Below, piece by piece: positions 16,606-19,704 of a stretch of DNA of 34,333 nucleotides. Each line of letters begins with the position of its first letter. Position 1 is the stretch's first letter. The stretch spans positions 1-34,333 of the forward strand of contig NZ_WTPX01000040.1 in NCBI RefSeq assembly GCF_013036045.1. Reading direction: 5' to 3'. The translations under genes and the position numbers were made by a program. This DNA is from Alienimonas chondri. GTDB lineage: Bacteria; Planctomycetota; Planctomycetia; Planctomycetales; Planctomycetaceae. The notes under the pieces were generated by a model. That model was not told the DNA's origin. It ran no database searches and saw only the letters and a list, made by a program, of their open reading frames with translations.

Positions 16606-16962
16606 ATGCCCACCCTGACCGTCAAAGACCAAGGTTCTTACGAAGTCCCGGCCGACAAGCGGCTGGTGCGCGCCCTCACCGAAGACGCCGGTGCCGATCA
16701 ATTGCACGCCTGCGGCGGAGTGGCGAAGTGCACGACCTGCCGGGTGCGCATCACCGACGGCCTGCCCTCCAAAATGACGACCGCGGAAAAAGCCGTCCGC
16801 GAGGCGAAGGGGCTGGACGATCCGCAAATCCGCCTTTCCTGCCAGTTGCTGTGCGAACAGGACATGACGGTCGAAGTCATCAGCCGCTTCGAGGGTAGCG
16901 GTCGGAAAGACGCAGGGAGCCCGGTCGCGGAGGAGATCCAGCCGGAGCCGGAGTGGGTCTGA
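16606..16962 (+). CDS. [2Fe-2S] ferredoxin
   Basis: The 118-aa protein is a plant/adrenodoxin-fold ferredoxin. The four cluster ligands are Cys36, Cys42 and Cys45 (ACGGVAKCTTC) plus Cys79 (LSCQLLC), with the CX5CX2C spacing of this class. It would pass single electrons to a cytoplasmic partner. The C-terminus has an extra acidic tail (about 100-118, ending EEIQPEPEWV). The ATG at 16606 gives the family N-terminus (MPTLTVKDQG). It is divergent from the Mrp gene, which makes a shared Fe-S role plausible but unproven. Its stop lies six bases before the left arm of the inverted repeat that bounds the next gene. Confidence 0.92.
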   Translation: MPTLTVKDQGSYEVPADKRLVRALTEDAGADQLHACGGVAKCTTCRVRITDGLPSKMTTAEKAVREAKGLDDPQIRLSCQLLCEQDMTVEVISRFEGSGRKDAGSPVAEEIQPEPEWV

Positions 16963-16968
16963 GACTGC

Positions 16969-16997
16969 GAAAGCTCCAAGACCAAGAAATCAAAAAC
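16969..16997. repeat. Left arm of 29-base inverted repeat
   Basis: This pairs with 17380-17408 at 26 of 29 positions; the perfect core is 16974-16993. It is A-rich in a GC-rich genome. It would lie in the 3' end of the four-helix-bundle transcript. Confidence 0.9.
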
Positions 16998-17006
16998 TAA
17001 ATATGG

Positions 17007-17363
17007 TCAATCTGCGGAGTGGTTCCGAAGGATGGCGGTGAAGATACGGACGAGCTGTCCGGCTTCGTCTTCGAGTCTGTCCCGTTCGTCCGCGAGGACA
17101 GCGATGTCACGGCAGTCGAGCAGGCGAAGCCAATAGCCGCTCTCCTTCGCCTCCTTGCGGCTCACTTTGATTCGGTATCGAAAGTCCTTGCCGCCCAAAG
17201 CTTCGTTCGCTTCGAGGTAGTTTGCCCCGACCGAGCCGGAAGATCGAACCAGCTGCTTTGCGTCGACGGAATTACAAAGCGTTCGCGGCAGTTTGCGAAT
17301 CAACTGTCGCACCTCCCGTGCGAACCGCTCAGTGCGATCATCCAGGTCGAACGTCTGGCTCAC
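17007..17363 (-). CDS. Four-helix bundle protein (S23/IVS-encoded family)
   Basis: The 118-aa protein belongs to the family of small four-helix-bundle proteins first found encoded in 23S rRNA intervening sequences (TIGR02436-type). The family block is clear: a first helix with FAREVRQLIRKLP, then LVRSSGSVGANYLEANEALGGKDFRYRIKVSRKEAKESGYWLRLL, and a last helix with DEAGQLVRIFTAILR. Homologues form pentamers, and the related Avd protein of diversity-generating retroelements binds nucleic acid; no function is proven for most. The start is a GTG at 17363 with only a weak ribosome site. Base composition is lower in GC than its neighbours, which suggests recent arrival. Flanking inverted repeats would allow its transcript to close into a panhandle. 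Confidence 0.9.
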   Translation of the reverse strand: MSQTFDLDDRTERFAREVRQLIRKLPRTLCNSVDAKQLVRSSGSVGANYLEANEALGGKDFRYRIKVSRKEAKESGYWLRLLDCRDIAVLADERDRLEDEAGQLVRIFTAILRNHSAD

Positions 17364-17379
17364 GACTCGTCCGTCTTTG

Positions 17380-17408
17380 GTTCTTGATTTCTTGGTCTTG
17401 GAGTTTCC
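17380..17408. repeat. Right arm of 29-base inverted repeat
   Basis: Inverted copy of 16969-16997 with three mismatches; perfect core 17384-17403. It lies in the 5' leader of the four-helix-bundle gene and four bases from the stop of the HD-domain gene. Confidence 0.9.
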
Positions 17409-17411
17409 CCG

Positions 17412-18812
17412 TCACATATTCGTCTTCGTATCCCCCGCCCCGCCGACCGCTTTCGCCAGCGCCGTGTTGATCGCTTGATCGTGCTGATGGTCGCGGGCGT
17501 AGATGCGGAAGATCGCGAAGGCCAGCGGCAAGCTGCGGAACAGTTCGTCGTCGCTGAGTTCCGTGGGCCCGCCCGCCGCCGGGTCGAGCAGCCAATTCAG
17601 GCCGGAGACCGGCAGGTCGGCGCTGGGCCGGTGGTAGTGCCGGGCGCTGTCGACGGCGAGCTCCAGGTCCTTCAAGTCGTTCGGCAGATGCCGGCGGACG
17701 CGGGCTTCGATCAACTCCGGCTCGGAGTAGATCGTAGTGCGCTCGGCGACGCCGCTGTGGAAGGAGATCGTGCGTTCCGCGGCCATCTTCCAGCCGAACC
17801 GCCGGGCGAGGATGTCGTCCCACTTTTCGCCCAGCGCCCGGTCGGTCTCGTCGTCGGAGAGGGACAGCCGGGAGACGTCGACGAGGAAGCTCTGCTCCGT
17901 CAGTCTGCGGTAGGCGTCGAGGTGTTCCAGCGGGTCGCCGGGGAACAACCGGGCCATCGTTTCCGCGAACAGTTCCTCCAGCGCCAGATCGAACGCCCGC
18001 ACGGTGCGGTGGAAATAGACGGTGCGAAACAGGTTCGCCCGAGTCTCGATAAAGTTGATCAGCGCCGGCAGGCCGCGGGCGTGGATCGTCAGCCCGGCGG
18101 GGGTGAAGAAGCTGTAATGCGTGAGTCGGGAGAGGTCGAACGCCCGCGTGTTGTAGCCGCTCATGTAGGCGTCCCGCAGGACGAAATCCATGTTGTCGAC
18201 CGTGTAGATCCCGCTGAACAGACTCCGCAGTTTGCGAAGCCAATCCGGCTGATCGTCCGGCTCGCCGGCTCGGGGTCGACAGATGAGATAGGCGACCTGC
18301 CGGGGTTCGACCTCTTCCAGCGGACCGATCACCCCGCCGGGGTTGCGGCGGACGCCGCGGAGCAGGTCGCCGAGTTCATGCTCGATGATGTGGGCGCCGA
18401 GGCGCTCGTGCGTCAGGCCGAACTGATCGAGGTAGTGGTCGTCGAAGAAGTGCCCGAACGGCCCGTGCCCCACGTCATGCAAGAGCGCCGCCAGCCGGCA
18501 GAGCGTGACCACCAGCGGCTTGCTGGGCATGTTCGGACAGGAGGCGGCGAGGCTGTCGTACCACTCGTCGCTCACCTTCCCCGCGAGGTGCATCGCCCCG
18601 AGGACATGCTGGAACCGCATATGTTCGGCGCTGGGAAAAACGTACCAGGCCGTCTGTAGCTGGTGGATCGCCCGCAGCCGCTGGACCCAGGGGTGGTCGA
18701 TGATCTGGGCCTCGCCCACTTCTCCCGCCGGCAAGCCGGCGCCGCTGGTGAAGGGGATGTAACCGTGGATCGGATCGTGGGAGAGGCTTTCGTGGGAGTA
18801 GTCGCGGGGCAT
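17412..18812 (-). CDS. HD-domain phosphohydrolase (COG1078/dGTPase-like)
   Basis: The 466-aa protein is an HD-superfamily metal phosphohydrolase of the COG1078 kind, related to dNTP triphosphohydrolases. It begins RDYSHESLSHDPIHGYIPF, typical of the group. Metal ligands: His69 (RFQHVLGAMH), His112-Asp113 (LLHDVGHGPFGH), and an Asp in YTVDNMDFVLRD (206/209). The C-terminal half is the helical extension of the family. Cytoplasmic dNTP or nucleotide hydrolysis is the likely role; the exact substrate is unknown. The frame runs back to 18974, but the ATG at 18812 gives the conserved start and avoids overlap with the divergent gene. Its stop is 4 bases from the inverted-repeat element. Confidence 0.9.
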   Translation of the reverse strand: MPRDYSHESLSHDPIHGYIPFTSGAGLPAGEVGEAQIIDHPWVQRLRAIHQLQTAWYVFPSAEHMRFQHVLGAMHLAGKVSDEWYDSLAASCPNMPSKPLVVTLCRLAALLHDVGHGPFGHFFDDHYLDQFGLTHERLGAHIIEHELGDLLRGVRRNPGGVIGPLEEVEPRQVAYLICRPRAGEPDDQPDWLRKLRSLFSGIYTVDNMDFVLRDAYMSGYNTRAFDLSRLTHYSFFTPAGLTIHARGLPALINFIETRANLFRTVYFHRTVRAFDLALEELFAETMARLFPGDPLEHLDAYRRLTEQSFLVDVSRLSLSDDETDRALGEKWDDILARRFGWKMAAERTISFHSGVAERTTIYSEPELIEARVRRHLPNDLKDLELAVDSARHYHRPSADLPVSGLNWLLDPAAGGPTELSDDELFRSLPLAFAIFRIYARDHQHDQAINTALAKAVGGAGDTKTNM

Positions 18813-18972
18813 GGGAACGGGCGGGCAAACTGATCGACGGGGAGCGGGGCGGTGAATGGTATCGCCGAGCGACTTGATCCCCCGCCCATCGCCAGCCCGG
18901 CCGGGATGGGAATCGCATCGGTGAGCCGTGATGCTGTCGGTCGTTTCATTCCCCGATTCGCCGGAGACGCCC

Positions 18973-19704
18973 ATGTTTCAAACCGTCCTCTGCACCCTTC
19001 TGCTGCCGCTCCCCGCGCAGCCGCCGGCCGTCGAGGCCGACGCCGCGCAGCCCGCCGAGACGCCCGCCGCCCTCATCGACGGGACCGGTCCGGGGTGGGT
19101 GACGCTGGGCGAGAAGGACTTCGCCGACGTGAACGGAGATCCCGAGACGTGGCAGTGGAAGGACAGCGGTCTGTACTGCACCGGCAAGCCGGTGGGCGTG
19201 ATGCGCTCGACGAAGCCGTACAAGAACTTTGAGTACACGCTGGAATGGCGGCACCTCAAAGCCGCGGGCAACTCCGGCACGTTCGTCTGGGTGCCAGAGG
19301 AGAAGCTGACGGATCTGCCGAAGGGCCGACTCCCCGGGGGCGGGATCGAAGTGCAGATTCTCGATCACGGCTATACGGAGTTCTACGAGAGCCGTTTCGA
19401 GAAGCCGGGCGACTGGTTCAGCACCGACGGCGACGTCTTCCCCGTGGGTTCCTCGAAGATGACGCCCTTCCCGCCGCTCTCCCCGAACGGCTCACGCAGC
19501 TTTCCCTCAGAGCGCCGCAGCAAGGGCGTCGGCGAGTGGAATCATTACTACGTTCGCGCGATCAACGGCGAGGTCCGCCTGTGGGTCAACGGCAAAGAGG
19601 TCTCCGGCGGGACCGGGTGCGTGCCCGCGGAAGGCTTCCTCTGCTTGGAGGCGGAGGGTTCGCCGATCGAGTTCCGCAACCTGCGACTCCGCGAGTTGCC
19701 GTAG
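18973..19704 (+). CDS. Secreted DUF1080 (3-keto-disaccharide hydrolase-like) protein
   Basis: The 243-aa protein has a short signal peptide (MFQTVLCTLLLPLPAQPPAVEA) followed by one DUF1080 domain, a concanavalin-like beta-sandwich abundant in planctomycetes. Domain marks: TWQWKDSGLYCTGKPVGVMRSTKPYKNFEYTLEW (the Leu-Tyr-Cys/Thr-Gly and DFEL-like strand), NSGTFVWVPEE, GGGIEVQILDHGY, GEWNHYYVRAINGEVRLWVNGKEV, and the closing IEFRNLRLREL. Characterised members act on 3-keto-glycosides; many only bind sugars. GGAG lies six bases before the ATG at 18973, which supports this start over an in-frame ATG at 18928. It is divergent from the HD gene. Confidence 0.9.
   Translation: MFQTVLCTLLLPLPAQPPAVEADAAQPAETPAALIDGTGPGWVTLGEKDFADVNGDPETWQWKDSGLYCTGKPVGVMRSTKPYKNFEYTLEWRHLKAAGNSGTFVWVPEEKLTDLPKGRLPGGGIEVQILDHGYTEFYESRFEKPGDWFSTDGDVFPVGSSKMTPFPPLSPNGSRSFPSERRSKGVGEWNHYYVRAINGEVRLWVNGKEVSGGTGCVPAEGFLCLEAEGSPIEFRNLRLRELP

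Follow-up and report, generated by a model that had tools for sequence, protein, structure and literature searches.

The window, a 34,333-nucleotide stretch of Alienimonas chondri DNA (positions 1 to 34,333 of contig NZ_WTPX01000040.1, assembly GCF_013036045.1), contains a gene for an S23 (23S rRNA-intervening-sequence) protein that is enclosed by two inverted arms and lies between two convergent genes, one encoding a ferredoxin-like and the other an HD-domain protein (Table 1). The first-pass annotation had described the arms as 29 bases long, matching as inverted copies at 26 positions and including a perfect core of 20; re-measurement gave the same figures (16971-16999 against 17378-17406; 26 of 29 positions identical, with a perfect run of 20). 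The unit as a whole stops 6 bases from the stop codon of the ferredoxin-like gene and 3 bases from that of the HD gene, in agreement with the earlier statement that it fills the convergent gap to within these distances. Its GC content was also correctly described as poorer than that of its surroundings: 0.55 for the unit and 0.34 and 0.41 for the arms, as compared with 0.68 for the window. Written on the plus strand, the 3′ arm is purine-rich and nearly identical in sequence to the 5′ arm. The arm pair scores 51, which was equaled by none of 673 pseudo-gene placements through the window; the two top placements (49 and 46) are the unit itself, and the next one reaches 32.

Table 1. Features of the S23 unit and of the genes that adjoin it (positions in the window).
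Feature	Position	Strand	Remarks
Whole unit: left arm, S23 gene and right arm	16969..17408	.	gap between two convergent stop codons
3′ arm of S23 gene	16971..17006	+	86% complementary over 36 nt to the 5′ arm
5′ arm of S23 gene	17371..17406	-	core CTCCAAGACCAAGAAATCAAGAACC at 17379-17403(-)
S23 four-helix-bundle (23S rRNA-intervening-sequence) protein gene	17007..17363	-	118 aa, GTG start
Neighbor, outside the unit: [2Fe-2S] ferredoxin-like gene (Fer2)	16606..16962	+	stop adjoins the unit
Neighbor, outside the unit: HD-domain gene	17412..18974	-	stop adjoins the unit

We characterized the S23 ORF by profile and structure comparison. It matches PF05635 at 43.8 bits (cut-off 33.8) and TIGR02436 at 62.7 bits (cut-off 24). 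At E ≤ 0.001, the gene matches no Pfam family other than PF05635; there is no tyrosine (Y1) transposase between the arms, and no insertion enzyme is encoded in the unit. The predicted structure (pLDDT 91.4) is a four-helix bundle, which aligned with 2rld at Z 17.2 (rmsd 1.7, 110 positions aligned) and with 2gsc at Z 16.4 (rmsd 2.4, 114 aligned), above the values of up to 12.7 that were obtained with unrelated helical bundles. The protein is a member of the S23/23S_rRNA_IVP family and has the fold of 2GSC and 2RLD. According to PMC4990558, S23 proteins have no known function; one solved relative has been described as a pentamer. A search of phage records with one query protein gave no S23 match. 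Diversity-generating retroelements combine a reverse transcriptase, Avd, and template and variable repeats. PF05635 reportedly resembles Avd (PMC10053308), but in our comparison the Avd chains gave Z values of 12.3–12.7, tied with the unrelated bundles, so that the fold alone does not establish kinship with Avd. One plasmid-encoded S23 protein matches bAvd below the cut-off (27 versus 40 bits).

The arms appear to represent a degraded heptamer tract, in which the spacings are 6, 8, and 7 and the highest lags are 6, 8, and 14. In the predicted RNA fold they close the whole unit as a panhandle (z = −4.9), and none of 100 shuffled sequences was as stable.

We then compared the site with that in G007, the one further member of this genus included. 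An S23 ortholog (85 of 115 residues identical) occupies the same site between the same neighbors. By the NG86 method, dN between the two genes is 0.21 and dS is 1.46, giving a dN/dS of about 0.14; the dS of the adjacent HD gene by this method is 0.44, about threefold lower. As YN00 gives 1.47 for the HD gene and no value for S23, the excess of S23 dS over that of HD is a result of one method, NG86. The first-pass annotation had reckoned with relatives that keep the gene between unrelated flanks; the arms in G007 do differ in sequence from those of the window, yet they are complementary to each other. The paired positions comprise 9 double changes, 18 unchanged pairs, 5 one-sided changes, and 3 broken pairs between the two genomes. 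As judged from these aligned arms, both arms have changed in pairs since the split from the congener. The arms of the G007 ortholog also show a clear lag of 7 (0.60 and 0.74), unlike the broken register of the window arms. No empty site was found for the window unit, the one congener compared carrying the gene as well. A recent insertion at this site is not supported, the ortholog being already in place in G007. Thus, the copy at the window site is ancestral to the genus, and it may now be inherited mainly vertically.

S23 genes from many phyla often have complementary arms. We took complementary flanks scoring at least 26 as arms and scored two sets of loci. At E ≤ 0.001, PF05635 was detected in 76 of 101 genomes from the family to which A. 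chondri belongs, 75 of them above the cut-off; the family set consisted of 72 loci, namely three from A. chondri itself and 69 taken down a ranked list of family genomes with some rows skipped. Two loci with an in-frame stop were retained among the 72, and arm orientation was scored with known strands. Arms were present in 64 of the 72 loci, as compared with 226 of 5112 mismatched pairs (4%), 3 of 72 loci in direct orientation, and 1 of 70 when the next 200 nt outward were used. The cross-phylum set was drawn from named genomes, which were scanned independently, and consisted of the best 80 of at least 583 confirmed candidates. Of these best 80, 51 have arms, including loci from Xanthomonas, Bacteroidota, Chloroflexi, Treponema, Acidobacteria, Clostridiaceae, and candidate phyla; the corresponding controls gave 248 of 6320 for mismatched pairs, 16 of 80 for direct orientation, and 2 of 65 for the outward flanks. 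The raised value in direct orientation indicates that heptamer tracts occur as direct copies too. Pseudo-genes placed inside the surveyed loci had complementary flanks in 3 of 283 and 9 of 642 cases. Arms were absent at the threshold from 8 of the 72 family loci and from 29 of the cross-phylum loci (best 80 of at least 583). An arm matches its partner at the same locus but rarely an arm of another locus. Chance or low complexity as the origin of the arms is ruled out by the backward-pattern, mismatched-pair, direct-orientation, outer-flank, and pseudo-gene controls.

A. chondri has three PF05635 genes (the window gene, C300, and C124), and the first-pass annotation had suggested examining whether other such genes of the genome are flanked by complementary arms. 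C300 has clear complementary heptamer arms of a sequence other than that in the window (score 38). The heptamer flanks of C124 match mutually at 24, below the threshold, and this gene is one of the eight armless family loci. None of three conserved 23S motifs sought in the S23 loci examined was matched, and an 11-base 16S motif, matched alone in 17 loci, was taken as chance. With no 23S-located S23 gene among the loci examined, we rely on published work for the rRNA case.

The arms follow a heptamer design. Among lags of 5–10, the best was 7 in 61 of 64 family arms and in 46 of 51 cross-phylum arms (the latter from the best 80 of at least 583). Mean arm identity was 0.72 for the 64 loci and 0.73 for the 51 loci at lag 7, and 0.73 and 0.75, respectively, at lag 14 (the 51 loci again from the best 80 of at least 583), as compared with 0.25–0.33 at the remaining lags from 2 to 13. 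The 5′ arms are rich in purines (0.68–0.69). The heptamer words themselves vary between loci, some being common to several. In Coxiella, GACAGAT heptamers, two or three depending on the strain, have been described just upstream of the S23 ORF in the 23S rRNA intervening sequence (IVS) (PMC4990558); this rRNA case therefore shares the heptamer design. As far as that description goes, heptamers next to S23 have been noted for Coxiella alone (PMC4990558). We found no study in the open-access literature that links S23 genes generally to heptamer arms, subscription journals lying mostly outside the search.

Related plasmids differ by exactly the arms and S23 as one unit. Ten of 29 S23-bearing plasmid records, mostly cyanobacterial, were examined. 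All ten loci have complementary arms scoring at least 26 (mismatched pairs, 11 of 90), and lag 7 exceeds lags 6 and 8 in nine of them. Records with the same flanks were compared for four of the ten loci, and S23-less relatives were found in all four cases. Relative to the plasmids of Nostoc linckia and Tolypothrix, Trichormus plasmid C contains an exact 428-bp insert made up of the arms and S23, and the 200-nt flanks are 97–99.5% identical to those of the S23-less plasmids. The insert has GTAAT at either end, and the empty site has a single copy; this 5-bp direct repeat was seen at this one site only. The Scytonema copy is shorter than the Trichormus element by 14 nt, that is, by two heptamers. 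By eye, the same site carries an S23-less heptamer hairpin in Brasilonema pBOCT2 and neither S23 nor a hairpin in pBOCT1 and A. cylindrica; in Nostoc C052, it carries a decayed S23.

S23 genes between co-directional genes are also armed. In Anabaena sp. 90 (L233), S23 lies between cas6 and cas4, and a near-identical Dolichospermum sister plasmid (L243) has a different hairpin in its place; at another locus (L238), S23 lies inside a cas operon between cas10 and cmr3. Eighteen S23 genes have been reported in cas operons (PMC3936711). Given the other hairpin in the sister plasmid, S23 in these operons looks like an inserted gene, not a cas gene. In Xanthomonas arboricola (L122:1458-1911), an S23 element separates accB from accC. 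Its 5′ arm starts directly behind the accB stop codon and overlaps the S23 start (−11 to +19, depending on the start codon chosen), and its 3′ arm abuts the ATG of accC.

Arm-like heptamers are dispersed genome-wide in three lineages. The first-pass annotation had considered that the arms might be found only at the window site. With up to 3 mismatches allowed, the A. chondri genome contains 25 matches to the arm core, counting both window arms, and none to the backward pattern. Among 18 of these loci examined, 14 contain a convergent pair with a short loop when up to 5 mismatches are allowed. Of the 18 solo sites, 14 have a stop codon no more than 13 nt away from the hairpin, as called from GC3; four of the 18 are between convergent genes, both of which have their stops within that distance. 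Eight of 11 sites that could be mapped to G007 keep a hairpin there, as judged by eye, and one is ambiguous; two have a different, GC-rich hairpin in G007 (L076 and L072, as compared with L014 and L022, with CCAAGA, in A. chondri). Over the eight sites, 164 pairs are unchanged, 5 show double changes, 58 are changed on one side, and 50 are broken. Recent hops of the solo hairpins are not supported, eight sites being kept in G007; these hairpins are old. Near the end of A. chondri contig C163 (2900-4300; L029), there are three tandem copies of a 231-bp segment that carries a solo hairpin, possibly an assembly artefact.

The second lineage includes Xanthomonas. Four Xanthomonas S23 loci, whose proteins are 83–88% identical to the crystallized Xcc0516, have GGGAATC arms. 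Seven genomes (four of Xanthomonas, two of Luteimonas, and one of Dokdonella) each contain 139–450 overlapping matches of the GGGAATC/GGGATTC type and none of the backward pattern, and in six of the seven (the four Xanthomonas, one Luteimonas, and Dokdonella) the S23 arms are of this type as well. The matches listed for Dokdonella include eight pairs that converge within about 160 nt and none that diverge. In X. campestris, Rehm et al. (2015) described 186 GGGAATC sites, which are biased toward stop codons and include 70 convergent pairs (PMC4692102). The third lineage is represented by G065 and G088, two genomes of one genus with AGTGGCC-armed S23 genes, which contain 134 and 92 overlapping matches, respectively (backward pattern, 1 and 3). 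G023, a member of the same genus without PF05635, has no AGTGGCC match, a single case; nor is there any match in five genomes of other genera, of which three lack PF05635 and two have S23 with other arms. Broken synteny prevented us from finding a clean AGTGGCC empty site in G023, and a 15-kb stretch compared between G065 and G088 showed many mixed repeat indels and no clean unit. Intergenic regions of these two genomes (L208 and L228) also contain other repeat families behind stop codons, such as GTGCGGGGTCGGGAGACCCGCGCACAACG and AGTAGGC heptamers, and these repeats differ between the two congeners.

Arms and dispersal do not always go together. For the G007 S23 element, arm sequences were found at their own locus only (E ≤ 0.001, 40 of 61 candidates scored). 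Those of C300 are not dispersed in the A. chondri genome, with three weak matches elsewhere as compared with one for the backward control. Luteimonas cucumeris has 147 GGGAATC-type matches although its S23 locus scores 17 and has no arms.

How does the window unit relate to known systems? With the S23-bearing 23S rRNA IVSs of Leptospira and Coxiella, as described, it shares an S23 ORF that fills a unit of about 430 nt, complementary ends, and a GC content below that of the host; in the Coxiella IVS, heptamers precede the ORF (PMC4990558), although they are not known to define all IVSs. Ralph and McClelland suggested in 1993 that IVSs are mobile (cited in PMC4990558). Unlike IVSs, which are located in helix 9, 25, or 45 of 23S rRNA, the window unit lies between protein genes, behind their stop codons; we liken the two on the basis of gene and architecture, excision from the transcript by RNase III being a feature of the IVS. 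The GGGAATC and GGGGA(T/C)T repeats of Xanthomonas and Nostoc are likewise heptamer tracts that form convergent pairs close behind stop codons (PMC4692102), and GGGAATC is the same heptamer as in the arms of the four Xanthomonas S23 loci. The window heptamer is different in sequence and degraded, and the passages of PMC4692102 that treat the repeats describe them as quadruplex-forming simple repeats, with the link to S23 absent. The unit has terminal inverted ends. MITEs and insertion sequences have terminal inverted repeats together with a target-site duplication. In the REP/BIME and RAYT systems, a gene is flanked by inverted short repeats that are also dispersed as pairs in intergenic space; RAYT is a tyrosine (Y1) transposase and is thought to help REP sequences spread. 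The window arm repeats are similarly dispersed as inverted pairs, but S23 is a four-helix bundle instead of a tyrosine transposase, and its arms are heptamer tracts.

Three other explanations have to be weighed against that of a mobile element. The arms might be ordinary bidirectional terminators or 3′-end stabilizers of convergent genes, with S23 present by coincidence. An intrinsic terminator consists of a short GC-rich stem and a T run. The position of the unit and of most solo hairpins directly behind stop codons, with four of the 18 solo sites between convergent genes, is what a terminator would predict; against this, S23 genes between co-directional genes (accB/accC, cas6/cas4) have arms as well, and pseudo-genes placed in the surveyed loci seldom have complementary flanks. 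A terminator scan, which allows loops of 3–8 only and is blind to long loops, flagged no terminator-like site at the window arms and one site within the S23 ORF (0.7 expected). We regard this explanation as very improbable. The window site could also be that of a host gene that is no longer mobile and is autoregulated through an mRNA panhandle, the 3′ arm hiding the start until S23 binds. The ortholog that the congener carries at this position, the dN/dS of about 0.14 (NG86), the paired changes of the arms, and the strongly predicted panhandle (z = −4.9) all fit such a gene. The dS of S23, about three times that of the HD gene (1.46 versus 0.44, by NG86 alone), would be odd for quiet co-inheritance, and S23 elements elsewhere show presence and absence; overall, we find autoregulation of a settled host gene doubtful.

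The remaining alternative takes the heptamer tracts as primary, generated near stop codons by slippage, template switching, or gene conversion, and S23 as a passenger or a binding protein with no role in their dispersal. The AGTGGCC tracts of G065 agree with it in being mostly single-sided runs behind stop codons, with a convergent pair in 4 of 18 small loci, some of which were chosen for a visible pair. So do the undispersed arms of the G007 and C300 elements, the many tracts of Luteimonas cucumeris, whose S23 locus is without arms, and the general lack of association between the Xanthomonas and Nostoc heptamers and mobile elements, as reported by Rehm et al. (PMC4692102). On this account, however, it would be hard to see why an arm matches its partner and not just any heptamer, why presence or absence in plasmids takes both arms together with S23, and why the S23-less congener G023 is without AGTGGCC tracts. 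We consider it unlikely that the tracts came first.

We therefore favor, with a probability of roughly 75% for the explanation as a whole, including its mechanism, the view that the window unit is an S23 element: a mobile S23 cassette of about 430 bp with complementary arms descended from tandem heptamers. In gene and architecture it would be of the same kind as the S23-bearing 23S rRNA IVSs, but located behind the stop codons of ordinary genes. The suggestion of the first-pass annotation that IVS-like elements exist outside rRNA as mobile or regulatory units is thus supported at the level of the class by the 72, 80, and 10 loci with their controls, as well as by the heptamers in a genuine rRNA IVS (PMC4990558) and by the presence or absence of arms plus S23 in plasmids. 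Mechanistically, read-through RNA is predicted to fold into the panhandle, which could insulate the host genes and cover the S23 start region, where the 5′ arm is purine-rich. The S23 protein might bind its own arm sequence, as RNA or as DNA. By analogy with RAYT and REP, S23 and host or other enzymes supplied in trans might help the arm hairpins spread, and the solo hairpins would be S23-less derivatives. The resemblance of PF05635 to Avd reported in PMC10053308 makes an RNA-level route thinkable, but our fold comparison did not set Avd apart from unrelated bundles.

A wider reading, to which we give somewhat less than even odds, is that S23 elements form a separate and very widespread class without a transposase, in which S23 recognizes and propagates its own arms, the rRNA IVS is one niche, and orphan heptamers are solo derivatives. 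The orphan repeats in question are GGGAATC of Xanthomonas, the CCAAGA hairpins of A. chondri, and the AGTGGCC tracts. Recognition may then take place at the RNA level, and copying may be carried out by a reverse transcriptase or another enzyme in trans.

S23, known as an IVS ORF since its description in 1993, and the heptamers of Xanthomonas and Nostoc, for which Rehm et al. report that no role was found (PMC4692102), are tied together by these elements, which offers a testable explanation for both. The tie also suggests why S23 genes occur inside cas operons. S23 elements provide a handle on whether a helical-bundle protein can drive the spread of hairpins. A kind of element that has so far been recognized mainly inside ribosomal RNA genes is now found between ordinary genes in many phyla.
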